A DNA stretch of 64,000 nt from an uncultured Kordia sp. (GTDB lineage Bacteria > Bacteroidota > Bacteroidia > Flavobacteriales > Flavobacteriaceae), in contig NZ_CANLEA010000010.1 in the NCBI RefSeq assembly GCF_947489565.1, positions 124,001 to 188,000 of the forward strand, written 5' to 3'. A program made the position numbers and the translations under genes. Below are positions 9,305 through 32,581 of the stretch, one piece after another (position 1 is the first letter of the stretch; the number at the start of each line of letters is the position of its first letter). Below the pieces are notes generated by a model. The model saw nothing but the letters and a program-made list of their open reading frames with translations. It was not told the DNA's origin and searched no databases.

Positions 9305-10042
9305 ATGGACGATAAGACTAAAAGAGAAATTGAGCTACATACAGCAGGCGCTACTGTAAGGCATAAAAGTCCTTTTCAGGAATTAGAATCCTATAAAAAT
9401 TCAGAAAAAATTGATCCAGAGTTTGTCAGTAAATGGGTCAAGCCTTTTTATATGAACCTAAATAGAGCTGATGAAGATTGGATTGACAACATTTCTAAGC
9501 TATCTCCAGAAATTAGCGATGCTGTAATATTAAGGAATTTGGGAGACTTCAATTGGAGAACGAGACAAACGGGATCTTTTTTCTCTTCTATAAAAAATAA
9601 AAAGGAATTTACCGATATCATTGGAACTCATTTATTAAAAAGTGAAGTATGCTATGCAGGTAGAGAATATGCCGTAACACTAAGCTATTTTAATACTAAG
9701 GATTCAATCATGTATTTGAACAAGTATTTGGATTATTACCTATTGCATCCTGAATTAGCTTTTGACCAATACACTGTTATTTCTGCTGTAAAATATTTAG
9801 ATGAACTCAACAATACAAACCTCATTGCTAATCATCTGGACTCTTGGAAAAGATTCTTAGAAAATGGAAAAAAATTACAGTACGAAAATCATGAATTATT
9901 GCTTAAATCCGATGCTATTCCAGAAGAAGCCAAATTAAAACTCTCAGAAATCACCTTTGATCAAAATATCGATTATAACATCAAAACCAATTTTATAGAA
10001 AAGAAAATTAACACCATAAAAGCAATCGTTAACAAAGTATAA
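9305..10042 (+). CDS. DUF6000-like protein
   Basis: 245 residues with no signal peptide, so probably cytoplasmic. The central region, with AVILRNLGDFNWRTRQTGS followed by helices such as YAVTLSYFNTKDSIMYL and DQYTVISAVKYLDEL, matches my recollection of the DUF6000 family, which has no known biochemical role. Members are often scattered singly in genomes and some occur near polymorphic-toxin immunity genes. It sits in the run of small hypothetical genes between the GH20 and cutC genes. The family name rests on memory, not a search. Confidence 0.6.
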   Translation: MDDKTKREIELHTAGATVRHKSPFQELESYKNSEKIDPEFVSKWVKPFYMNLNRADEDWIDNISKLSPEISDAVILRNLGDFNWRTRQTGSFFSSIKNKKEFTDIIGTHLLKSEVCYAGREYAVTLSYFNTKDSIMYLNKYLDYYLLHPELAFDQYTVISAVKYLDELNNTNLIANHLDSWKRFLENGKKLQYENHELLLKSDAIPEEAKLKLSEITFDQNIDYNIKTNFIEKKINTIKAIVNKV

Positions 10043-11395: not shown

Positions 11396-11694
11396 AACCA
11401 ACTTCCCTTTACTTAAGGAAGATTCTTCCTCATTGTGCATTTAGCTTCCCCTAACGAAATCAATCCTATGCACTTTTCTGTTTGCTGTTATAAAACATCC
11501 AAAGAATCGTTTATAAGCGCCTCTTTTTTGAATAAAAACAAGCATTTTAAATACAGATATAACTTCAACAATTTTAAAATCATATCAACAATTGAAAGAT
11601 TAAGCAAAGCAGAAAACATTTTTAAATGATATATTTGGAAAAGAACTTAAAGTTGAATTCAATATTTAAAACTAAACCTTCATAATTTCAAAGT

Positions 11695-12420
11695 ATGCTC
11701 TTAGAAATCTGTGCAAACTCTTATCAATCTGCCATGAATGCTGCAACAGCTGGTGCGCAACGTATTGAATTGTGTTCAGAATTGGCCGTTGGTGGTATTA
11801 CGCCTTCCTTTGGATTGCTTAAAAAAGTAATGGCAGACCTCAACATTCCTGTGCATGTACTTATTCGTCCTAGAAGTGGCGATTTTACCTATTCGGATGA
11901 AGAATTTGAAATGATGAAGACGAATATTCAATTGTGTAAAGAATTGGGTTGTGCAGGCATTGTATCTGGTATTTTGAAAAAAGATTTTACAATTGACACA
12001 GAACGAACCCAAGAATTAATTGAACATTCAAAACCAATGACTTTTACATTTCATCGCGGTTTTGATTGGACGCCAAATCCGAAAGAAGCAATTATAGCGC
12101 TCGCAAATTTAGGTGTCGATCGTGTATTGACTTCCGGACAAGCCTCTAATGCAGCTAAAGGAATTGTATTGCTTCAAGAATTACAACAAATGGTTAAAAA
12201 TCGTTTGATTGTGATGCCTGGAGGCGGAATTAATCCTGAAAATGCTTCTCTTTTTAAAGAAGCTCGTTTTCAAGAAATTCACTGTTCTGCAACGAATTTA
12301 CACGAATCTATCCATCCGCCAAAAATTAGCATGAACAGTCAAAAGTTTTTAAGTGATACACATTTGGCGACTTCAGATACAGAAAAAATTAAACAAATAG
12401 TAGCGCGTATTCATTCATGA
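11695..12420 (+). CDS. cutC: CutC family protein
   Basis: 241 residues, full length for the family. Motifs include LEICANS at the N-terminus, RIELCSELAVGGITPS, HVLIRPRSGDFTYS, FHRGFDW, LTSGQA and VMPGGGIN. They form the TIM-barrel-like fold of CutC, historically linked to copper homeostasis in E. coli though its activity is unproven. Its stop codon overlaps the start of the PNGase F-like gene (shared ATGA, 12417-12420), so translation is probably coupled to a glycan-degradation operon. That context suggests a role in glycan or sugar metabolism here rather than copper handling; this is inference. Confidence 0.9.
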   Translation: MLLEICANSYQSAMNAATAGAQRIELCSELAVGGITPSFGLLKKVMADLNIPVHVLIRPRSGDFTYSDEEFEMMKTNIQLCKELGCAGIVSGILKKDFTIDTERTQELIEHSKPMTFTFHRGFDWTPNPKEAIIALANLGVDRVLTSGQASNAAKGIVLLQELQQMVKNRLIVMPGGGINPENASLFKEARFQEIHCSATNLHESIHPPKISMNSQKFLSDTHLATSDTEKIKQIVARIHS

Positions 12421-13637
12421 AAAACATTCTAAAAATAAGTCTCTTTAGTATCATCTTTTTGATCGCTTGTGCGGAAAAGAAAACGGAAATAAAATTAGAA
12501 GCCATCGGTGATACTTCTATACATGTTTTTGAAAATGAAAATTTACATTTCAACATGGCTTTCAAAGAAAATATAACGGAAGACGAGAACGGAATGTTAC
12601 GATTGGATGCCGGTCGTGTATTGGTAAAAAAAGTAAAACTTCCTAAGTACCAACTACAACCTGAAGTTACAGTACATCTGAAACTGACCTCAAATGGCGA
12701 TCCTTGGGACAAATCGGGTTCAATGTTTATCATTCCGAAAACTTCAAACCTTACGCTAATTGATTTTGAAACTGGAAAATTCGATCTCAAAACAATAAAA
12801 CAAACTTATCCTGTCATCACAAGCTATCAAAAAGACAGCATTTTACATGAACCAAACGTAGAACTTTTACGTTTTATGACACCTTTTGGTGTAGGTCATT
12901 TTACCAACGATGAACGCGTAAAAGCCAGAAAACCTGTGTACATTCCGAAATGGGAAGACGAAGTTAACTGGTCACAAAATATAACACACTTATTGCCTTT
13001 ATTGGAAGATGAAGTGTATGTAGGTATTTATATTGACACATGGACTAAAGAAGGCTATAACATCACCGCAACACTTGATTTTAAAGAAAGTACAATTCCG
13101 AATCATACAAAAAAACAGCAAACCGTCATTCCGTTGGTAAATACTTCAAAGTATGCTTCTGGTCAGAAATTATATGATGAATTTTCGCGTTCTGATGTAA
13201 ATGTTGAATTTGAAATGCCAGCTACCTTCAACAATGCAAAACTGTATTATATTACCACAGGTCATGGCGGACATTCGGGCGGAGATGAATTTGTAAAAAA
13301 AGAAAATAAAATCTCGCTTGACGGAAACACTCTCAAATCCTTTATTCCTTGGCGTGATGATTGTGCGAGTTTCAGACGTTTCAATCCAACTTCGGCAACT
13401 TGGAAAGCCAATCAGTTTTATGACGATGTAGATGATTGCGAAAAAATTGCTTCTTCCGATTTATCACGCTCCAATTGGTGTCCAGGAAGCGACATTCAAC
13501 CCGAAATAATTCCACTAAAAAATATCTCACAAGGAAAACATACAATCACAATCTCAATTCCAGAAGCTCAAGAAGCCAAGCAAGGCGAAGATAATTATTG
13601 GATGGTTTCTGCTTATATCGTATATGACAATGAATAA
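12417..13637 (+). CDS. PNGase F-like peptide-N-glycosidase lipoprotein
   Basis: 406 residues. PNGase F removes whole N-glycans by hydrolysing the asparagine amide. The lipoprotein signal ends LIACAEK. Two eight-stranded domains are expected (about 40-215 and 220-405). From memory of the Elizabethkingia PNGase F sequence, the essential Asp60 corresponds to Asp98 in DPWDKSG, Glu206 to Glu291 in GGDEFVKK, and NWCPGSDI matches its GWCPG motif. The position of Glu118 (ETW in PNGase F) is Asp207 (DTW) here, a conservative change. Four-base overlap with cutC and 14-base overlap with the GH2 gene show a tight operon. Activity on glycoproteins is likely; amidase specificity (core fucose tolerance) cannot be read. 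Confidence 0.82.
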   Translation: MKNILKISLFSIIFLIACAEKKTEIKLEAIGDTSIHVFENENLHFNMAFKENITEDENGMLRLDAGRVLVKKVKLPKYQLQPEVTVHLKLTSNGDPWDKSGSMFIIPKTSNLTLIDFETGKFDLKTIKQTYPVITSYQKDSILHEPNVELLRFMTPFGVGHFTNDERVKARKPVYIPKWEDEVNWSQNITHLLPLLEDEVYVGIYIDTWTKEGYNITATLDFKESTIPNHTKKQQTVIPLVNTSKYASGQKLYDEFSRSDVNVEFEMPATFNNAKLYYITTGHGGHSGGDEFVKKENKISLDGNTLKSFIPWRDDCASFRRFNPTSATWKANQFYDDVDDCEKIASSDLSRSNWCPGSDIQPEIIPLKNISQGKHTITISIPEAQEAKQGEDNYWMVSAYIVYDNE

Positions 13638-16101
13638 ATTTTTCTCACTCTTACTCGTACTTCTACTCATTAGTTGTGCTAAAGACGATCGACCAACAAT
13701 TACAAATATTCACCAAAACTGGGAATTTAAACAGAAAACCGATACGACTTGGAATACGGCCAGTGTTCCGGGAAATATCTATTCAGATTTGTTGACACAT
13801 GACAAAATTCCAGATCCGTTTTTTGGTTCTAATGAATTGAATGTACAATGGGTTCCAACGAAAGATTGGGAATATCAAACGACATTCAATCTTGACGAAA
13901 AAACATTGCAAAAATCAAATATTGAGTTGACTTTTGAAGGTTTGGATACGTACGCGAGTATTTACCTCAACGATTCATTGATTGGGAAAACCGACAATGC
14001 ATTCCGAACATGGAAATTCGACATTAAAAATCTAGCGAAAGCTGACAACTCTTTACGTATTGGATTCCAAAGCACCAGCATTCATGAAGAAAAAGAAACG
14101 GAAAAACTCGATTATTTATTAAATCCAGGCATCCGTGTTTTTACCAGAAAAGCACAATTTCAATACGGTTGGGATTGGGGACCAATTGTTAATACGGCTG
14201 GGATTTGGAAACCTATTAAAATTACGTCGTGGAACAATATGAAATTGGATGATGTGTATTTTAAACAAGAAGCATTGACAGATTCACTCGCTTCTGTAAG
14301 TGTTGAATATACCATTTCCTCAGAAGAAGATGTGGATAATGCTTCTTTCGAAATTAACTATGGAGAAACAACACATACAGCCAAAACGCCTATTTACAAA
14401 GGAACACATACGTATGCGACACGACTTCGCATTAAAAACCCGAAACGTTGGTGGACGTTTAATTTAGGCGAACCACATTTATATGAATTTGAAGTCACGC
14501 TGAAACAAGGAAATGATATCAAAGGAAAAGAAACTGCCAAAGTTGGTTTGCGAACCATTAAATTAATTCGCAATAAAGACAAAGCAGGCGAAACCTTTTA
14601 TTTTGAATTAAATGGCGTTCCAGTGTTTATGAAAGGTGCCAATTACATTCCGCAACACAGCATGCAAGACAAAGTAACGGATGCGCATTATGAAAAGTTA
14701 CTGAACGATACTAAAGACGCCAATATGAACATGTTGCGCGTTTGGGGCGGCGGAATTTATGAGAACGATATTTTTTACGAATTGTGTGATGAAAAAGGAA
14801 TCTTAGTCTGGCAAGATTTTATGTTCGCTTGCGCGATGTATCCTGGAGACAAAGCCTTTTTAGACAATGTAGAACAAGAAGCCATTGATCAAGTGAAGCG
14901 TTTGCGAAAATATGCTTCGGTAGGACTTTGGTGTGGAAACAATGAAAATAACGAAGCTTGGCATAATTGGGGCTGGCAAACCGATAAAACAGAAGCTCAG
15001 AAAAAAGAAGTTTGGGATAGTTATGTCACCGTATTTAACCGAATTCTTCCAGAAACCGTTGCCAAATACAATCCGTCGATTTCGTATTGGGAAAGTTCAC
15101 CGAGTTACGGACGTAGAGATGCAAGATCCTTTACAGAAGGTGATAATCACGATTGGGCTGTTTGGCATGGCGGCGTGCCATTTGAACGTTTTGAAGAAAA
15201 AATACCGCGTTTTATGAGTGAATTCGGGTTTCAGTCCTTTCCGTCGTATGAAGCCATTCGCTTTTTTACAGGCGAGGACAGTATCAGTATCAATCACGAT
15301 AGCTATATCACACATCAGAAGCATCCGAGAGGTTTCAAGTTGATTCGTGAATATATGGGGCGCGATTATCCTGTTCCGACTTCGGGAGATGATTATGTAT
15401 ACATGAGTCAATTGACACAAGCCAAAGGAATTACTATGGGAATGGAAGCAGAACGCCGTGCCATGCCATATTGTATGGGAAGTTTATACTGGCAATTGAA
15501 CGATTGTTGGCCTGTAGTTTCGTGGTCGAGCATTGATTTTATGGGGAATTGGAAAGCCTTGCATTACAAAGCCAAAAAGTCTTTTGAAGATGTATTGATT
15601 TCCTCTGTTGTAAAAGATGATATCATCAAAACATATATTGTTTCTGATAAATTGGAAGCGTTGGAAGGAAAATTAAACCTCAGCTTTTTAGATTTTGAAG
15701 GAAATAAACTTCACGAAATCTCAAAAGACATAAAACTGCCTGCTAATACGAGTCTGTTAGTTGCTGAAACGCCTGTTTCTGATATCACAGCAGATACAAA
15801 TACATATGTAATGAAAGGAACTTTTAAAGAAGCTACCGACCTATTTTATGTGGCTAGACCAAAAGATTTAAAATTACCTGCAGAAGATATTACCACAAAA
15901 GTCACCAAAACAGAAGGCGGATTTACCATAGAAGTTTCTGCAAAAACCTTACAAAAGGATGTATTTTTCTATACAAAAGTCAAAGGTCATTTTTCAGACA
16001 ATTTCTTTGATGTATTGCCAAATGAAACGGTTACGATTACGTTTACCACTGAAGTGGACAATATTGATGACTTAGCGTTTAAGACTTTAAATGGTATTTG
16101 A
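13624..16101 (+). CDS. GH2 beta-mannosidase lipoprotein
   Basis: 825 residues. The signal peptide carries a lipobox (LLISCAK). Domain order is the GH2 sugar-binding N-domain (about 25-195, with WEYQTTFNL and GLDTYASIYLN), an Ig-like domain, and the GH2 barrel with the acid/base Glu in LWCGNNENNEAW and the nucleophile Glu in MSEFGFQSFPS. The FQYGWDWGP motif is characteristic of beta-mannosidases in the GH2 family. It would cleave the Man-beta-1,4-GlcNAc core bond of N-glycans. It overlaps the PNGase F-like gene by 14 bases, and its stop codon overlaps the possible TTG start of the following kinase gene. Confidence 0.93.
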   Translation: MTMNKFFSLLLVLLLISCAKDDRPTITNIHQNWEFKQKTDTTWNTASVPGNIYSDLLTHDKIPDPFFGSNELNVQWVPTKDWEYQTTFNLDEKTLQKSNIELTFEGLDTYASIYLNDSLIGKTDNAFRTWKFDIKNLAKADNSLRIGFQSTSIHEEKETEKLDYLLNPGIRVFTRKAQFQYGWDWGPIVNTAGIWKPIKITSWNNMKLDDVYFKQEALTDSLASVSVEYTISSEEDVDNASFEINYGETTHTAKTPIYKGTHTYATRLRIKNPKRWWTFNLGEPHLYEFEVTLKQGNDIKGKETAKVGLRTIKLIRNKDKAGETFYFELNGVPVFMKGANYIPQHSMQDKVTDAHYEKLLNDTKDANMNMLRVWGGGIYENDIFYELCDEKGILVWQDFMFACAMYPGDKAFLDNVEQEAIDQVKRLRKYASVGLWCGNNENNEAWHNWGWQTDKTEAQKKEVWDSYVTVFNRILPETVAKYNPSISYWESSPSYGRRDARSFTEGDNHDWAVWHGGVPFERFEEKIPRFMSEFGFQSFPSYEAIRFFTGEDSISINHDSYITHQKHPRGFKLIREYMGRDYPVPTSGDDYVYMSQLTQAKGITMGMEAERRAMPYCMGSLYWQLNDCWPVVSWSSIDFMGNWKALHYKAKKSFEDVLISSVVKDDIIKTYIVSDKLEALEGKLNLSFLDFEGNKLHEISKDIKLPANTSLLVAETPVSDITADTNTYVMKGTFKEATDLFYVARPKDLKLPAEDITTKVTKTEGGFTIEVSAKTLQKDVFFYTKVKGHFSDNFFDVLPNETVTITFTTEVDNIDDLAFKTLNGI

Positions 16102-18137
16102 TAAAAAACTATAGAAAGCGTTCTGTTTTTGGTATTTTAGTACTTCTAAAAATTCAACAATTGAACGCTTTATACAAACTCCTCGTATTCTTATTTCTTT
16201 TCTTAAGCTTTTCCACTAGTTTTTCACAAGAATCTTCCGCAATTCATGATAGTATTGTTTCTTGGATTGAAAATGCTAAGGATAAAAAGTTCTCTTTGGA
16301 AGAGAGAAAAGCTTTTAACAAAAAAGCAAATATAACTGCTGATTTTACTAAAAATGACTCATTAAAAAGCAAATATTATTTTAAAATAAATTATAACAAT
16401 TTTTTACTTAATGACACATCTGCTTTTAAAATTTCATATAAGAAATCTTTGAATCTTGCAATTAAATTAAACGATTCAATTATAATAGCAAATTGTTATT
16501 GGGATAAAGGAGCTTTAGCTAGAAAAAATAACCAAAAAGACAGTGCTTATATATATTATAATAAAGCACAGAAAATTTTAACAAAATATCCAGAGAAAAA
16601 AATATCTGCCGCAAGAATACTTCTCTTCATGGCAAAAATTCAAAAAGATGTTAAAGATTACACGGGCAGTGAACTTAATACTATAAAAGCGATAAAAATC
16701 TTTAAATCTTTAAATGACTATAAAAGGCTCTATAGTAGTTATAATAATCTTGGAGTTATTTTCAAACATCTTAAACAATATGAAAAAGCTCTTGAATATC
16801 ATAATATTGCATTAAAATATTTAGATACAAACAATTCTACTCATACTTCTTTCAGTCTTAACAACATAGGTTTAATTTACAAATATCAAGAAAATTATAA
16901 GTTGGCAATAAATAATTTTAAAAAAGCTCTAAATATAGATAGTCTTTACTATATAAAGCCTAAACAATATGCTACTGTTCTCGACAATCTAACATACACT
17001 AAATTCTTATCAAACGATACCATTAATATAAAAAAAGATTTATATAAGTCATTAAATATAAGAGATAGTTTAAATGATTACAGCGGTATCATTATTAATA
17101 AAATTCATTTAGCCGAATATTATTTTAAAAAAAACAATTTTGAAAAAAGTTATAAATACTTAATAGAGGCTAATAAATTAGCTATTGAAAAAAAGATTCC
17201 TGAAAATTTACTAATTACTTATGATTTACTAGCTAAAGCAGATCCAAAAAACAGCACAAAATACCTAAGGCGTTATATAGAAATTAGTGATAGTACTTTA
17301 TTAGAAGAACGACGCATGCGTGATAAATTTACACGTATTGAGTATGAAACTGAGGAAATAGAACAAGAAAAACTAGCTGTGGAAAAAGATAATAAATCTT
17401 TAAAACTTACAATTTTTATAGTTTGTATGTTGGGTATACTTGTTATCTATTTAGGACTGATTTTGTATCAAAAAACCTCATTAAAAAACAAATACGAAAA
17501 AGTCGTCTTACAACAACAATTACTACGCTCGCAGATGAATCCGCATTTTTTGTTTAATACACTGAATACGATTTTACATACGAATGATACGAAGCCTGAA
17601 AAGACGAAACAATATGTGTTGAAATTGTCGCAGTTGCTAAGAACTACCTTAGAGAATTCACGAGAAGAATTTGTGCCTTTACAGGATGAAATTGAAGCGA
17701 TAGATCATTATTTAAATCTGCAATCCAATTTTTCAGAGAAGTTTGATTTTAAAGTTTCTATTGCAGACGAATTAGAAACCGAATTTACCTATGTTCCGCC
17801 AATGTTGATTCAGCCTTTTGTAGAAAACGCCATTATTCACGGAATTACAAATTCTAAAATCAGAGGCTTGGTAGCTTTAGATTTTCAACAACACGGAGAA
17901 TTGATCTCTTGTACGATTACAGACAACGGAATTGGATATTCTAAAAGTCCGCAAGAAGAAAGGAACCATTTAAAAACGCATAAATCTATTTCGGGAGACA
18001 TTGTCAAAGAACGTTTGGTGATTTACAACAAGCAAAACAAAAGCAATGCTTCTTTAAAAATTGAAGATATATTTGATGAAAATAAAAATGATGTAGGAAC
18101 CAAAGTGATTCTAAATTTACCTTCATACGAAATCTAA
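16098..18137 (+). CDS. TPR sensor histidine kinase, LytS/YehU class (orphan)
   Basis: 679 residues from TTG at 16098; a better start may be TTG at 16161, which would put a signal peptide (NALYKLLVFLFLFLSFSTSF) at the N-terminus. No ATG is available near the start. TPR repeats (about 90-400) form the sensor region, including YNNLGVIFKHLKQYEKALEY and SLNNIGLIYKYQENYKLA. A coiled coil, one membrane helix (LGILVIYLGLILYQ) and a His_kinase domain follow with QMNPHFLFNTLN (phospho-His483 on the first numbering), then an ATPase domain with PFVENAIIHG. Such kinases normally pair with a LytTR response regulator, but none lies beside it. The gene abuts the beta-mannosidase and precedes a six-paralogue array. 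Confidence 0.88.
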   Translation: MIKNYRKRSVFGILVLLKIQQLNALYKLLVFLFLFLSFSTSFSQESSAIHDSIVSWIENAKDKKFSLEERKAFNKKANITADFTKNDSLKSKYYFKINYNNFLLNDTSAFKISYKKSLNLAIKLNDSIIIANCYWDKGALARKNNQKDSAYIYYNKAQKILTKYPEKKISAARILLFMAKIQKDVKDYTGSELNTIKAIKIFKSLNDYKRLYSSYNNLGVIFKHLKQYEKALEYHNIALKYLDTNNSTHTSFSLNNIGLIYKYQENYKLAINNFKKALNIDSLYYIKPKQYATVLDNLTYTKFLSNDTINIKKDLYKSLNIRDSLNDYSGIIINKIHLAEYYFKKNNFEKSYKYLIEANKLAIEKKIPENLLITYDLLAKADPKNSTKYLRRYIEISDSTLLEERRMRDKFTRIEYETEEIEQEKLAVEKDNKSLKLTIFIVCMLGILVIYLGLILYQKTSLKNKYEKVVLQQQLLRSQMNPHFLFNTLNTILHTNDTKPEKTKQYVLKLSQLLRTTLENSREEFVPLQDEIEAIDHYLNLQSNFSEKFDFKVSIADELETEFTYVPPMLIQPFVENAIIHGITNSKIRGLVALDFQQHGELISCTITDNGIGYSKSPQEERNHLKTHKSISGDIVKERLVIYNKQNKSNASLKIEDIFDENKNDVGTKVILNLPSYEI

Positions 18138-18180
18138 AATCACGATTAAAACTGTATTTTAGCAGCGTAAATCATTCCAT

Positions 18181-18648
18181 ATGAAAAATAGAATTGTCAT
18201 ACTAACATTCCTTTGTGCGCTTGCATTTTCCAGTTTTAAAGTTGGAGACGCGACAGAAAAATTTGGGAAACAGTTTTTTAAATTATTAAAAGCGTCTCCT
18301 AAAGCGTCAGAAGCAGACATAAAAACACAGTTTATTTCATTGCAAGAGTTAAGGACATTTCCTAAAACAGAATTGGCAGAACTTTCACAAGAACAATTCA
18401 ATGGATTTATCCAGGAAAACATTGATAACTTGAAAGAAAGTCTTAAAGATTTTGGTATTGTATGCAACGAAATTAAATATGTAAAAACAGAAATACAGTC
18501 AGCAAAAGAAAAAGATATTGATATAAAAAAGATTGACATTTATTTTGAACATGGAGTTCGTTATTTTGTTTTAAAATTGATTACAATTCCATATCAAAAT
18601 CAACTTAAATTAGTATATATCATGCCTATTACATATGCCGAAGAATAA
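18181..18648 (+). CDS. Paralogue array member 1, exported protein of unknown function
   Basis: 155 residues with a signal peptide (MKNRIVILTFLCALAFSSF) and no lipobox. It is the most diverged member of six tandem homologues, recognised by shared features: a first helix after the signal (EKFGKQFFKLLKASPKAS), the [IL]SLQELR segment, and the final beta segment with an FEH.VRYFVLKL-like pattern. It starts 43 bases after the kinase stop. The next ORF could begin at 18635 inside its end, but its lipoprotein signal points to 18662. No known family was recognised. Confidence 0.75.
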   Translation: MKNRIVILTFLCALAFSSFKVGDATEKFGKQFFKLLKASPKASEADIKTQFISLQELRTFPKTELAELSQEQFNGFIQENIDNLKESLKDFGIVCNEIKYVKTEIQSAKEKDIDIKKIDIYFEHGVRYFVLKLITIPYQNQLKLVYIMPITYAEE

Positions 18649-18661
18649 ATTCGTTTTATTA

Positions 18662-19165
18662 ATGAAAAAGTCTATCTACATTACTATTCTCACTTTTATT
18701 TCTATACTGTATACATCGTGTACTACGCAATCCAAACCCGAAGGTTTTGCCGTACAACAAACTTTTAGGTTATTACAGCAAATGGATAGTTTGTCTCCAA
18801 ATGAATTTAATAGTTATTTTATTTCCTTGGATGAATTGCGTGAGATTGCCAAAGATACTTCGGTGAGTAAGACTTTTAGAAACGCCATTACAAATGTTTC
18901 TAAAGAAGTTCATTACAAGAGATTACAGCAATCTTACGAAATGATTAAAGAATCGGGAAAACGCTTTGAAATCGACTGGAAAGACATCACATTCAGAGAA
19001 TATCCATTTGTAATGCGCGATGAAGATGGCATTACCTTCCAAGATGGTTTTGTCGCTTTTGATTATAAAGAAAAAAAGTTTGTGACCAAGATTGTTTCTA
19101 TCAAGTATAAAGACAAACAACGACTTTTTAATTTATCAAACATAGAACCTGTGCGTAAGCAATAG
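18662..19165 (+). CDS. Paralogue array member 2, lipoprotein of unknown function
   Basis: 167 residues from ATG 18662, chosen because MKKSIYITILTFISILYTSC is a complete lipoprotein signal; an upstream in-frame ATG at 18635 would add nine residues and overlap member 1. The array pattern is FRLLQQMDSLSPNEFNSYF, then ISLDELREIAK, then IDWKDITFREYPFVMRDED and a closing beta strand (FDYKEKKFVTKIVSI). The family is unrecognised; a cell-envelope location is likely. Confidence 0.75.
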   Translation: MKKSIYITILTFISILYTSCTTQSKPEGFAVQQTFRLLQQMDSLSPNEFNSYFISLDELREIAKDTSVSKTFRNAITNVSKEVHYKRLQQSYEMIKESGKRFEIDWKDITFREYPFVMRDEDGITFQDGFVAFDYKEKKFVTKIVSIKYKDKQRLFNLSNIEPVRKQ

Positions 19166-19251
19166 TGTGTTCTTAGGATTCTAAAAATAAATCAACACTA
19201 TACTTCGTTAATTTTTCTATCTTTAAGAAAATAACGAATAATAACTTTCCG

Positions 19252-19764
19252 ATGAAAAAATTACAATTCATTTTAACCGTTCTAGTAACGTCTATTCTAT
19301 TCGTTTCCTGTAGCAAACATAAAGGCACAGCCAACGCCGAAGACCTAGGGAAATATGTATTTGGCATTTTAAAAGATTTTGACAACATCACGAAAGACGA
19401 TTATATTAATTCACTCCTTACTGTTGAAGAAGTAAAAGCATTTGGAAAACGAAACGCCGAAACTTTAAGTACTAGAACAAAGGAACAAATTGATAGACTT
19501 GAAGAAGGACGTTATAATTTACGTATGGGCAAAGATTATAACCGTACAAAAGAAAGAGCCCAAAAAGCGGACATTTCGTGGAGTGCTATTAAATATGACA
19601 ATTATGAATTTAAAGAAGATGATGAAGACGGAATTAAAACTTCTCGTGGAAAGCTGACATTTAAACATGATGGCAAAACCTACAGAGTTTCCATTATTTC
19701 CGCATTTTTAGAAGGAACTCATACGTTGATTCGAATTTACAAACTCAATCAAGAAAAAGAATAA
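19252..19764 (+). CDS. Paralogue array member 3, lipoprotein of unknown function
   Basis: 170 residues. The lipoprotein signal ends SILFVSCSKH. Family landmarks are ADAEDLGKY-like helix (EDLGKYVFGILKDFDN), SLLTVEEVKAFG, then ISWSAIKYDNYEFKED and LTFKHDGKTYRVSI. It resembles member 4 most closely over the whole length. The 86-base gap upstream is the largest in the front half of the array and may hold a promoter. No catalytic residue pattern is evident. Confidence 0.78.
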   Translation: MKKLQFILTVLVTSILFVSCSKHKGTANAEDLGKYVFGILKDFDNITKDDYINSLLTVEEVKAFGKRNAETLSTRTKEQIDRLEEGRYNLRMGKDYNRTKERAQKADISWSAIKYDNYEFKEDDEDGIKTSRGKLTFKHDGKTYRVSIISAFLEGTHTLIRIYKLNQEKE

Positions 19765-19801
19765 TTACACAATTTCAAATAATACTAAAGATTACCTTAC
19801 C

Positions 19802-20311
19802 ATGAAAAAATTACAATTCATCGTGCTTGCAATTATTGCTACTACTTTTTTTATTTCTTGCCAAGATTCAAAACATATTTCAAATGCAGATGATCTAGGT
19901 AAATATGCATTTGACATTTTGAAAAAGTTTGAAAATTCTTCAAAAGAAGATTATGTCAATAGTTTGCTAACTCTTGAAGAGTTTAAATCGTTTGCAAAAA
20001 AGAATGGAGATTCCATGCAACAAGTTGTAAAAGAAAGTATTGAGAAGTTGGATAAGAAAACCTACGAATCCGGATTGCTTAGACAATACACGCTACTAAA
20101 AGATAAAGCAAAGGAATTGAATATTTCATGGAACGCCATTGAATATGGCGATTTTACCTATGAGGAACGAACAGATGATGGTATGACTGGAATTCGTGGC
20201 CAATTGACTTTTACTCATAATGGTACTCAATATGAAGTAAGCACTTCTGCCCTATTGACTGATAATGTATACGTTCCTGTGATTATTAATCAATTAAACG
20301 AGAAAAATTAA
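19802..20311 (+). CDS. Paralogue array member 4, lipoprotein of unknown function
   Basis: 169 residues. The signal ends TTFFISCQDS (lipobox Cys). Core motifs are DDLGKYAFDILKKFENSS, SLLTLEEFKSFAKK, NISWNAIEYGDFTYEER and LTFTHNGTQYEVST. These define the family best and are shared with members 3, 5 and 6. The gene starts MKKLQFI, identical to the start of member 3, consistent with recent duplication. Function unknown. Confidence 0.78.
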   Translation: MKKLQFIVLAIIATTFFISCQDSKHISNADDLGKYAFDILKKFENSSKEDYVNSLLTLEEFKSFAKKNGDSMQQVVKESIEKLDKKTYESGLLRQYTLLKDKAKELNISWNAIEYGDFTYEERTDDGMTGIRGQLTFTHNGTQYEVSTSALLTDNVYVPVIINQLNEKN

Positions 20312-20329
20312 ACCTAAAAATAAGACTTC

Positions 20330-20845
20330 ATGAAAAAAATAACATTCCTTTTAGTTGTTTTCTTAACAGCTACTTTTTCAGTGTATTCTCAAGATTCTAA
20401 AGGTGTTACCAATCCAGATGATGTTGGCAAACGTGCTTTAGATATTTTGAAAAAATTTGAAAATACTTCAGAAATTGAATTCAGAAATAGCATGATGACT
20501 ATTGAAGAAGTCAAAGAATTTGTGAATAAACAAGAAGACTCTGCTATGGGCAGAATGAAAGAGGATATCAATAAAATGGATATCGCAGAGTATCAAAAAA
20601 GAGTGGCAAAAGTCTATAATGATTTAAAAGAAAAAACAAAAGAATTTAATATTGTATGGAAAGATATTGAATATGTTGATTTCACTTACGAAGTGAGAAA
20701 TAAAAGAGGTTTGAAAGGAGTTGAAGGTGAAGTATTTTTTAAATACAAAGAAACCGAATATAAAGTAAAAACGGATGCTGTAAAGAATGGCGATGTGTAT
20801 ATGCCCGTTATTGTGAGAAGTTTACGAAAGAAAGACGATGATTAA
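20330..20845 (+). CDS. Paralogue array member 5, exported protein of unknown function
   Basis: 171 residues, 18 bases after member 4. The signal peptide (MKKITFLLVVFLTATFSVYS) has a serine where members 3 and 4 have the lipobox cysteine, so it is predicted to be soluble and periplasmic or secreted. Family motifs are DDVGKRALDILKKFENTS, MMTIEEVKEFVN, FNIVWKDIEYVDFTYEVR and VFFKYKETEYKVKT. The C-terminus ends in a basic-acidic tail (RKKDDD). Confidence 0.78.
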   Translation: MKKITFLLVVFLTATFSVYSQDSKGVTNPDDVGKRALDILKKFENTSEIEFRNSMMTIEEVKEFVNKQEDSAMGRMKEDINKMDIAEYQKRVAKVYNDLKEKTKEFNIVWKDIEYVDFTYEVRNKRGLKGVEGEVFFKYKETEYKVKTDAVKNGDVYMPVIVRSLRKKDDD

Positions 20846-20949
20846 TTTTCAACCGTTTTGAAGTCGCTAGTAAAGCAAAAATTTTGCATGTATTCTACAA
20901 TGTAATAAAACGAGAAGAATACATGCATTCACATAAAAAATACATTTTC

Positions 20950-21465
20950 ATGAAAAAAATAGCATTCCTTTTCATCATTTTTTTAACAACCACTTTTTCA
21001 GCGTATTGTCAAGACACTAAGAGTGATTTCAACGCGAATGAACTTGGTAAAGAGGCATTTAATATTTTAAAAGAGTTAGATAAATCTTCTGAAAAAGATT
21101 TTATAAATAAGCTATACTCTCTCCAAGAAATTAAAGCATTTATAAATAAAAAACTAGATACTGTACCAAGTGAAATAAGAGAGAACATCAATCAGATGAC
21201 TACTGAAGAGTATCACAAAAAAGTTATTGACGAATTTAACGATCTAAAAAAAGTAGGAAAGCAGTATTCCATTGATTGGAATTCTATTGAATATTCAGAT
21301 TTTACCTATGAAAAAAGAGAAGAGTCAGGTTTAAAAGGATTGCGTGGTGAATTAGTTTTTAAAAGTCAAAACGAAGCATATATTGTAGATGTTGAAGCTA
21401 TATTGGTAGAAGATATCTATGAAATCATGATTGTTACAATTCTAGTTAAAAAAGGTAATCATTAG
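20950..21465 (+). CDS. Paralogue array member 6, exported protein of unknown function
   Basis: 171 residues from ATG 20950, where a signal peptide (MKKIAFLFIIFLTTTFSAYC) begins; the upstream in-frame start at 20884 would add a charged 22-residue extension unlike any sibling. The cysteine at the expected site follows Ala-Tyr, so lipidation is doubtful. Family motifs are NELGKEAFNILKELDKSS, LYSLQEIKAFIN, YSIDWNSIEYSDFTYEKR and GLRGELVF. Its stop overlaps the convergent LOG-family gene by four bases. Confidence 0.77.
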   Translation: MKKIAFLFIIFLTTTFSAYCQDTKSDFNANELGKEAFNILKELDKSSEKDFINKLYSLQEIKAFINKKLDTVPSEIRENINQMTTEEYHKKVIDEFNDLKKVGKQYSIDWNSIEYSDFTYEKREESGLKGLRGELVFKSQNEAYIVDVEAILVEDIYEIMIVTILVKKGNH

Positions 21466-22034
21466 TTTTTCAACCATTTTGGAGTTGCCAATGGAACAAA
21501 ATTCTTCATACGCTCCAACAATGTTGAAACATCGCTTTCAATGATAAGCATGTCGAAGTTTTTTTCTTTTAACAATTCTTTCTGCATCATGGTTTTCATC
21601 AAGGCAATAAGTTCGTCGTAATAACCATTGCTGTTTAAAATTGCAACAGGATGTGGTATTTGTGCCAATTGTAACGCTGTCATTACTTCAAACAATTCTT
21701 CCATCGTTCCAAATCCGCCCGGAAGCGCAATAAAACCTTCGGAAAGTTCAATCATTTTCATTTTACGTTCCACCATGGTTTGTGTCGTATGCAGTTCCGT
21801 GAGATTGGTATGTGCAATTTCTTTATGTTTTAAAAACTCAGGAATTACACCAATTACTTCGCCTCCATTATCCAAAGTAGCATCTGCCACAGTTCCCATA
21901 ATTCCAATCTTTGCACCTCCGTACACGACTGTAATATTTTCCTTTGCTAATACTTTTCCTAATTCAATAGCATCTGAAACGATTTTTGGATCGTTTCCGA
22001 GACTGCTTCCACAATAAATGGCTATACTTTTCAT
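21462..22034 (-). CDS. LOG family protein (TIGR00730 type)
   Basis: 190 residues, Rossmann-like fold. The motif PGGFGTMEELFEV is the signature of the LOG / lysine-decarboxylase-like family; plant and some bacterial members are cytokinin riboside 5'-monophosphate phosphoribohydrolases. The N-terminal IAIYCGSSLGNDP and VVYGGAKIGIMG fit the nucleotide-binding part. The bacterial role is probably nucleotide-monophosphate hydrolysis. It is convergent with the paralogue array, and a 9-base tandem repeat lies just upstream of its start. Confidence 0.88.
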   Translation of the reverse strand: MKSIAIYCGSSLGNDPKIVSDAIELGKVLAKENITVVYGGAKIGIMGTVADATLDNGGEVIGVIPEFLKHKEIAHTNLTELHTTQTMVERKMKMIELSEGFIALPGGFGTMEELFEVMTALQLAQIPHPVAILNSNGYYDELIALMKTMMQKELLKEKNFDMLIIESDVSTLLERMKNFVPLATPKWLKN

Positions 22035-31153: not shown

Positions 31154-32581
31154 ATGAGTGTAACTGCGCAATCAGTATGGGATAACTGTCTGTCTTTCAT
31201 AAAGGACAACATTCAGCCACAAGCATATAAGACTTGGTTTGAGCCTATAAAGCCTGTAAAGTTAACAAATAAAGCGCTAAGCATTCAAGTTCCTAGTAAG
31301 TTTTTTTACGAATGGCTCGAAGAGCATTATGTGAAGTTATTAAAGGTAGCTTTGGTAAAAGAATTAGGAAATACTGCTCGTTTAGTGTATATCATTAAAA
31401 TGGAAAATACATATGGCAACAAAAAGCCATTTACAGAAAAAATTCCAAGTGCCAATCGTAGTAATGTGAAAGCACAAGAAATTGATGTCCCTATCAAAAA
31501 TAAAAGTCCCGAACTGAAAAACCCTTTTATCATTCCTGGTATCAGAAATGTAAAGATTGAATCACAGTTAAATCCAAATTATAATTTCGACAATTTCCTA
31601 GAAGGTGACTCCAATCGCCTAGCACGTTCTGCTGGAATGGCAGTAGCTAACAAGCCTGGAGGAACATCTTTTAATCCACTCTTAATTTTTGGTGGTGTTG
31701 GTTTAGGAAAAACACATATTGCACATGCTATTGGTGTTGAAATTAAAGATAAATATCCTGAGAAAACAGTATTGTACATTTCTGCTGAGAAATTTACACA
31801 ACAATATATAGAGTCTGTAAAGAAAAATACACGTAACGATTTTATACACTTTTACCAGTTAATTGATGTATTGATTATTGACGACGTACAATTCTTTTCT
31901 GGTAAATCTGGAACGCAAGATGTATTTTTCCACATCTTCAACCACTTACACCAAAATGGAAAGCAAGTAATTCTAACATCAGACAAAGCTCCTGTAGACA
32001 TGCAAGATATTGAGCAACGCTTATTATCTCGTTTTAAATGGGGACTTTCTGCAGAATTGCAAACTCCAGACTTTGAAACACGTGTTTCTATTGTGAAGAA
32101 TAAGTTATATCGTGATGGTGTTGAAATGCCAGATGATATTATAGAATATGTTGCTAAAAATATCAAATCGAATGTTCGTGAACTCGAAGGTGCTATCATT
32201 TCTTTGATTGCTCAATCATCTTTCAATAAAAAAGAAGTTACAATTGAGTTAGCAAAACAAGTCGTTGAAAAATTCGTTAAGAATACCAAACGTGAAGTTT
32301 CTATCGATTATATCCAAAAAGTAGTTTCAGATTATTTCCAAATGGATGTATCTACACTACAATCAAAAACACGTAAGCGTCATATCGTGCAAGCGAGACA
32401 GTTAGCTATGTTTTTTGCAAAGAAATTCACCAAAGCTTCTTTGGCAAGTATTGGTTCACAAATTGGAAAACGCGATCACGCAACGGTACTACACGCTTGC
32501 AAAACTGTTGATAACTTATCATCTACAGACAAGCAATTTAGAAAGTACGTTGAAGATTTAACAAAGAAACTTTCGCTGTAA
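31154..32581 (+). CDS. dnaA: Chromosomal replication initiator DnaA
   Basis: 475 residues. Domain I (about 1-80) starts SVWDNCLSFIKDNIQPQAYK. The AAA+ domain has Walker A GGVGLGKTH (about 178-186) and Walker B VLIIDDVQFF. The C-terminal DNA-binding domain has the DnaA signature KRDHATVLHACKTV. No obvious cluster of TTATCCACA boxes is visible in the 200 bases upstream, so the origin may be elsewhere. The phosphatase gene follows 10 bases later. Confidence 0.97.
   Translation: MSVTAQSVWDNCLSFIKDNIQPQAYKTWFEPIKPVKLTNKALSIQVPSKFFYEWLEEHYVKLLKVALVKELGNTARLVYIIKMENTYGNKKPFTEKIPSANRSNVKAQEIDVPIKNKSPELKNPFIIPGIRNVKIESQLNPNYNFDNFLEGDSNRLARSAGMAVANKPGGTSFNPLLIFGGVGLGKTHIAHAIGVEIKDKYPEKTVLYISAEKFTQQYIESVKKNTRNDFIHFYQLIDVLIIDDVQFFSGKSGTQDVFFHIFNHLHQNGKQVILTSDKAPVDMQDIEQRLLSRFKWGLSAELQTPDFETRVSIVKNKLYRDGVEMPDDIIEYVAKNIKSNVRELEGAIISLIAQSSFNKKEVTIELAKQVVEKFVKNTKREVSIDYIQKVVSDYFQMDVSTLQSKTRKRHIVQARQLAMFFAKKFTKASLASIGSQIGKRDHATVLHACKTVDNLSSTDKQFRKYVEDLTKKLSL

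Follow-up and report, generated by a model that had tools for sequence, protein, structure and literature searches.

What are the six consecutive genes that lie in tandem in a 64,000-nucleotide stretch of the genome of an uncultured Kordia species (contig NZ_CANLEA010000010.1, positions 124,001 to 188,000; hereafter the window), and what might their products do? The array spans window positions 18181-21465, where six open reading frames (ORFs) on the + strand encode exported proteins of 155-171 residues, here called m1 to m6. An initial annotation described them as diverged copies of one exported protein that it did not recognise. Our analyses showed that all six are homologous, and structural modeling predicted a fold of a known kind. 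The members are as follows (other genomes and loci are given by our G and L codes):

18181..18648, + strand, m1: 155 residues, the most diverged member, with an N-terminal signal and no clear lipobox
18662..19165, + strand, m2: predicted lipoprotein (C20)
19252..19764, + strand, m3: predicted lipoprotein (C20), with orthologues in G008 (63%) and G007
19802..20311, + strand, m4: predicted lipoprotein (C20), with an orthologue in G008 (67%)
20330..20845, + strand, m5: exported, without a lipobox Cys (SVYS-Q), with an orthologue in G008 (58%)
20950..21465, + strand, m6: exported, with a Cys at position 20 in an unusual context (AYC-Q); the last gene of the array

The starts of m2 (18662, not 18635) and m6 (20950, not 20884) were shifted by comparison with relatives.

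Homology was assessed on the mature parts of the proteins (signal peptides removed), using a profile of five members to search for the one left out. Each member was found in this way (m1 at E 4.4e-12, m2 at 2.2e-23, m3 at 2.2e-37, m4 at 3.1e-46, m5 at 5.7e-44 and m6 at 1.4e-38), and the best of 374 decoy ORFs in the six runs reached E 2.0e-4 to 0.041. The top decoy in five of the six runs was one 943-residue protein from locus L066, which was in the decoy set because an earlier profile had matched it. Every member was also recovered, at E ≤ 1.8e-14 (the worst being m1), by a profile built from 34 homologues lying outside the window, which had themselves been gathered with profiles grown from the six; the best decoy there was at 0.38. 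Pairwise BLAST joined m2, m3, m4, m5 and m6; m1 reached E < 1e-3 only with m2 and m6, and its membership therefore needs the profile. Identities of 28-44% between pairs of m3 to m6 bear out the remark in the initial annotation that these four are close and m1 and m2 more diverged. As all six align in a profile search, and not just pairs of them, the observation of a six-gene family stands. A six-sequence profile found no seventh copy in the genome, the next match being at E 0.62. The segments described as common to the six, among them one resembling WxxIxYxDFxYE, were present as described except in m1, which has a C for the W of WxxIxY. Across 40 family sequences, the alignment columns conserved in at least 90% hold L, I, W, G and F only.

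Judged by sequence, this family is uncatalogued in the libraries that we searched. Among the matches listed for the 40 members in Pfam, NCBIfam, PHROGs, PADLOC and PDB sequences none was convincing, and the same was true of the six full-length proteins in Pfam and NCBIfam. The profile libraries thus gave no convincing match to an annotated domain; calling the family unrecognised was correct for sequence profiles and incorrect for its predicted fold, which is the known NTF2-like one. Two domain families considered below, DUF3887 (PF13026) and DUF4878 (PF12870), were absent from the Pfam matches of the six full-length proteins up to E 1. Both were also absent among the best 25 of the 36 Pfam families matched by the 40 mature members at E ≤ 0.1, the 11 families outside that best 25 ranking below single-member matches of E 0.05. 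These profile scans therefore place the array proteins in neither family.

Several weak matches were rejected. Full-length m3 and m4 matched the NCBIfam families PG1828, BamK, BamM, BamJ and Riean_0653 at E 0.0065-0.12, and these matches were gone when the mature parts were used (E ≤ 0.1), so they were attributed to the signal peptide. The best PDB sequence match (E 0.078) was to a short helical stretch of NrdR, and the best PHROGs match (E 1.4e-4, among the best 25 of 41 families) involved 1 of 40 members and a family with no function. PADLOC matches, taken without a curated cut-off, were spread over 14 families, including Cas11e in 6 of 40 members (best E 2.9e-5) and BrxC in 2 of 40 (2.2e-6); we read this scatter as noise from helices or composition. 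There was no match at E ≤ 0.001 among viral predicted structures, and no published description of this array in the literature searched on Kordia, NTF2-like proteins and tandem lipoproteins.

The fold of the family is predicted to be NTF2-like (cystatin-like), a widespread shape in which ligands are often bound, with helices packed on a curved antiparallel sheet. An AlphaFold2 model of m4, built with 23 homologues from the window and named Kordia loci, had a mean predicted local distance difference test score (pLDDT) of 93.1 and a predicted template modeling score (pTM) of 0.85, and has five helices, the last of 21 residues, followed by a meander of four 12-residue strands. The model of m1 (pLDDT 90.9, pTM 0.83) has the same order of elements, with a shorter last strand. 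The top Foldseek rows were DUF4783 and cystatin-like proteins. Alignment with VIA-align placed m4 closest to 4qan_A (Z 11.0; 3.4 Å, 137 residues), the DUF3887 structure 4hyz_A (Z 8.9; 2.6 Å, 103 residues) and 3k7c_A, a DUF4878 representative (Z 8.2; 3.8 Å, 106 residues), with many NTF2-like chains under Z 8. For m1, the corresponding values were 10.7 for 4qan_B, 10.2 for 4r1k_A, 9.6 for 4hyz_A, 8.4 for 3k7c_A and ~9 for NTF2 itself, and 79 of 1000 chains had Z of at least 8.

Comparison with these structural relatives revealed both likenesses and differences. RUMGNA_02398, a cystatin-like protein (PDB 4qan), was the top structural match of both models, and its alignment covers 137 of 148 residues of m4 and 131 of 135 of m1; its chain is 385 residues long, the aligned part being 50-220, at 10-11% identity. 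The DUF4783 structures (PDB 4q53 and 4orl), from Bacteroides of the same phylum, had the lowest Foldseek E-value (0.038, over 78-88 columns), with partial coverage, a TM score of ~0.3 and no sequence match with the Kordia family seen. According to the sections of Eberhardt et al. (PMC3924330) available to us, the NTF2-like domains DUF3887 and DUF4878 are exported or anchored by a lipid, carry signal peptides or lipoboxes and lack conserved polar residues suggestive of catalysis; non-catalytic ligand binding outside the cytoplasm was proposed there. As far as those sections go, both (PDB 4HYZ and 3K7C) resemble the Kordia family in being small and exported or lipid-anchored, in combining helices with a four- or five-stranded curved sheet and in lacking conserved polar residues that point to catalysis. 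Their structural alignments with m4 and m1 are at 11-13% identity, and the Kordia proteins are longer, with ~145 mature residues and extra N-terminal helices, in contrast to ~100 residues in DUF3887 and DUF4878. The tandem array in one genus also sets the Kordia family apart.

Where in the cell would these proteins reside? A position rule, rather than a signal-peptide predictor, was used to call lipoboxes, and by this rule 32 of the 40 members have a Cys at the lipobox position, including m2, m3, m4 and (in an odd context) m6. The eight without it are m1, m5, the m5-like members of G006, G008 and G010 and three proteins from outside the genus. Surface-exposed lipoproteins are described, in the part of PMC5080379 available to us, as having an acidic export signal (LES) just after the Cys. 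By a simple rule, from which the signal of Kordia itself may differ, at least two acidic residues at +2 to +6 occurred in only 1 of the 32 lipobox members and in none from the window. Surface export via signals of that type is therefore not predicted, and most members should face the periplasm.

The family was present in 11 of 11 Kordia genomes searched, the loci compared including those of K. periserrulae (G005), K. algicida, K. zhangzhouensis and K. aestuariivivens. By ORF maps, the array has six genes in the window, five in G006, four in G008, three in G002, G003, G007 and G010, and two in G001, G005 and G009; G004 has one array gene, at a contig edge. One extra copy was found elsewhere in each of G006 and G009, that of G009 near recG. 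Across taxa, the 40-member profile matched 8 of 397 family-level genomes (three of them Kordia), 5 of 395 order-level and 2 of 385 phylum-level genomes, the window's genome being counted in each. These samples overlap, and all matches from the order and phylum samples fall within the same taxonomic family; the searches score about ten candidates per genome, so misses are possible. The family is Kordia-centred and, outside the genus, rare and single-copy. No match was found in phages or plasmids with m4 as the query, or in viral contigs with m2 orthologues.

Some matches outside the genus were set aside. Four of eight such genomes (G083/L062, G057/L063, G397/L065 and G181/L066) rested on the full-length profile and were dropped; with the 40-member mature profile the best E among them was 1.3, the other three proteins going unreported, and yet profiles of five mature members still found the L066 protein at E 2.0e-4 to 3.2e-3. 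The G245 match (E 3e-9) was not recovered among ORF calls and is held doubtful. G641 has a single copy (E 8e-16) that is outside the 40-member set. This homologue (L102:1-9000) lies amid several small ORFs with N-termini like export signals, a possible island of such genes.

Comparison of synteny revealed that the array occupies a fixed slot between a GH2 (glycoside hydrolase family 2) gene and a LOG-like gene across the genus, and that among the ten readable loci only the window has a kinase gene there. The neighbours are:

11695..12420, + strand, gene of the CutC family, preceding the beta-mannosidase gene in 10 of 10 loci
12417..13637, + strand, peptide-N-glycosidase F (PNGase F) gene, between cutC and the GH2 gene in 4 of 10 loci (the window, G008, G009 and G010)
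13624..16101, + strand, GH2 beta-mannosidase-type gene, found on the left in all 10 genus loci whose upstream sequence is available
16098..18137, + strand, TPR and His_kinase (LytS-like) gene, between the beta-mannosidase gene and the array, a place so occupied in 1 of 10 readable loci
21462..22034, - strand, LOG-like (Lysine_decarbox/SLOG) gene, flanking the array on the right in 11 of 11 genus genomes and overlapped for 4 nt by m6

The PNGase F and beta-mannosidase genes together make a small cluster for N-glycan degradation, and a DUF6000 protein (9305-10042, Pfam E 1.6e-39) is encoded upstream of cutC. A scan of the + strand from 11500 to 21500 for TAnnTTTG, a Bacteroidota -7 motif, gave two matches, at 11630 (65 nt before cutC) and at 18068 (within the kinase gene), and none in the array spacers. 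Scans for sigma-70-type promoters (39 found, 31.2 expected) and for terminators (4 found, 2.1 expected) were uninformative. Farther away, a 475-residue ORF (31154-32581) was found at 99-100% identity in other Kordia species (99.8% over 435 residues in L050 and 99.4% in L068), in loci where the genes near it are ~52-95% identical.

How did the array arise and how does it change? A tree of the family showed the m2 sequences of 9 species grouped together, another cluster of six sequences drawn from five species, and a group that contained m3 to m6. Counting the window, 9 of 11 Kordia genomes have an m2 orthologue, which opens the array in 8 of those 9, and m2, m3, m4 and m5 are collinear with their orthologues in G008; no orthologue of m1 was recognised in the other loci examined. 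A window-only clade of m3 to m6 was rejected by the approximately unbiased (AU) test (p-AU 3e-10), because m3, m4 and m5 have collinear G008 orthologues; the tree used left out five long-branch rows, m1 among them. In the free tree m6 was placed beside a G010 gene (support 89/79; 96/80 in the 40-row tree), and p-AU was 0.149 for a single clade of m5, m6 and the G008 m5, so that these trees neither establish nor reject a late origin of m6 from m5 by copying. A trace of how m6 may have arrived lies in the m5-m6 spacer:

20846..20889, no strand assigned, decayed copy of the LOG-like gene's 3' end, beginning immediately downstream of the m5 stop codon

In this 44-nt segment, 33 of 43 aligned bases match 21467-21509, with one gap. 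Its score was reached by 0 of 1000 shuffles against the last 150 bases of the gene, 1 of 500 against the last 200 and 3 of 1000 when the whole gene was the target. When aligned with G008, the sequence stays in register from the 3' end of m5 into the LOG tail of G008, with two gaps of one base each. Among 23 spacers tested, one other LOG fragment was found, of 21 bases, in G009 (0 of 1000 shuffles). The simplest reading of these alignments is that m5 once adjoined the LOG-like gene and that m6 probably came between them via a duplication that carried the LOG tail; the resulting repeat could delete m6 again.

Selection was estimated from the nonsynonymous (dN) and synonymous (dS) substitution rates relative to G008. 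In four pairs, m2 to m5 had dN of 0.15-0.28 and dN/dS of 0.07-0.21, and nine neighbours, among them genes that we take to encode GNAT, pentapeptide, LEA-like and RibD proteins, had dN of 0.04-0.13 and dN/dS of 0.04-0.16. These are NG86 values, YN00 having given none for some pairs; dS was high (0.7-2.2), which makes the ratios rough and leaves room for a few fast sites. The array members change faster than the nine neighbours, yet are under purifying selection, and the suggestion that the amplification reflects an arms race received no gene-wide support from the orthologue ratios. Adaptation to a niche, also suggested there, may still apply, in the form of glycoprotein use. The m5-m6 paralogue pair had dN/dS of 0.49, which is not unexpected after duplication.

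What the members do can be proposed at present with about even confidence: they would be non-catalytic, ligand-binding periplasmic lipoproteins under birth-and-death evolution. Each protein would be held by its lipid at the inner side of the envelope, with m5, and perhaps m1 and m6, free. Helices and curved sheet would together make a cone whose cavity or groove accommodates a ligand without catalysis. The conserved core would maintain the fold, and as the remaining residues vary from one paralogue to the next, the set may cover several ligands or partners. The ligands might be products that the neighbouring PNGase F and beta-mannosidase release as they break down glycoproteins; because of the beta-mannosidase neighbourhood, such products are a reasonable first guess for m2. 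The array would gain and lose genes as segments are duplicated or deleted, and the LOG end would have seen at least one such event.

Several observations weigh against this proposal. Support for an NTF2-like identity in the sequence is all but absent, consisting of an NTF2_SigF match in 1 of 40 members at E 0.025, and Foldseek gave no match to the PDB at E ≤ 0.001. VIA-align only re-ranks the Foldseek list and warns that Z < 8 may mean just a common arrangement, and for m4 only 4 of 1000 chains reached Z 8. Two of the six, m1 and m5, have no lipobox. The constant beta-mannosidase neighbour, seen in one genus, may be a single inherited linkage; genes lie between GH2 and m2 in 4 of 9 m2-bearing loci (the window, G005, G007 and G008), and homologues outside the genus adjoin other genes, namely S9 peptidase and FeoB genes (G229) and a DUF6122 gene (G251).

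Other functions were weighed against ligand binding by periplasmic lipoproteins. Diverged tandem paralogues of differing copy number in a fixed slot, encoding exported proteins without strongly conserved polar residues, are also what would be expected of an immunity array, in which lipoproteins bind and neutralise toxins that competitors deliver into the periplasm and turnover tracks the toxins met. The members' higher dN than that of their neighbours is consistent with this, as is the presence of 4hz9_B, a chain of an effector-immunity complex, among the structural matches of m4, at Z 6.3 and tied with dozens of unrelated rows. We consider it rather unlikely, since no effector-like gene was recognised among the neighbours scanned (orphan immunity genes would still fit), the phage, plasmid and viral-contig searches gave no relative, the orthologue dN/dS is low, m2 is kept in 9 of 11 species and the PADLOC matches appear to be noise.

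It is similarly doubtful that the proteins act as inhibitors or helpers of hydrolases, cystatin-like lipoproteins that restrain envelope or secreted peptidases and glycosidases or aid their folding. Cystatin-like rows in the structural lists, the constant beta-mannosidase gene, a metallopeptidase (M57/M10-like) gene in the K. periserrulae slot (L051:6799-8193) and the S9 peptidase gene beside the G229 homologue all point in this direction, and operon-linked regulation of hydrolases was proposed for domains of the DUF3887/DUF4878 type in the available sections of PMC3924330. The partner varies from locus to locus, however, and NTF2-like rows outnumber true cystatins among the structural matches listed.

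More elaborate, and in our view improbable, is a repertoire of genus-specific, fast-turning NTF2-like lipoproteins, each variant serving a different ligand or toxin and m2 being a fixed founder tied to glycoprotein breakdown. New variants would arise at the LOG end by duplications that drag the LOG tail along and that recombination between tail copies could undo, giving the array its own means of diversifying receptors or immunity.

The initial annotation also noted that the array follows directly on an orphan LytS kinase. The adjacency was verified (the kinase gene ends at 18137, 43 nt before m1, on the same strand), and the kinase is locally an orphan, as none of the genome's 63 LytTR matches lies within the window; a link between kinase and array was not upheld. 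In each of the nine other Kordia loci whose GH2-to-array interval is readable, the slot has no such gene, and the nearest relatives of the kinase (38-43% identity over the first 480 residues) are located elsewhere; with 15 matches at E ≤ 1e-30, it belongs to a large family in this genome. The occupants of the interval between GH2 and m2 vary among loci: the kinase and m1 in the window, the metallopeptidase gene in K. periserrulae and, in G007 and G008, a gene for a membrane protein of 183/184 residues, with a similar protein inside the G009 array. The kinase is therefore one of several local passengers, not a family member. The similar membrane proteins, of 179-184 residues (L053:8778-9329, L054:8211-8765 and L055:9702-10241), have no convincing Pfam match, and none was seen at the window's array. 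A sensor array, in which the lipoproteins present ligands to the TPR-containing N-terminal part of the kinase, would suit the adjacency and is very unlikely, as arrays persist in the nine loci whose slot has no kinase.

Overall, the family is real, uncatalogued and evolutionarily lively, with a predicted fold of a known kind and the familiar behavior of a gene family. The NTF2-like exported proteins, for most of which no ligand is known, thereby gain a family absent from the libraries searched. The one to six copies in otherwise collinear Kordia loci are a natural series for copy-number genetics, and the decayed LOG tail is an example of how bacterial tandem arrays of this type change.

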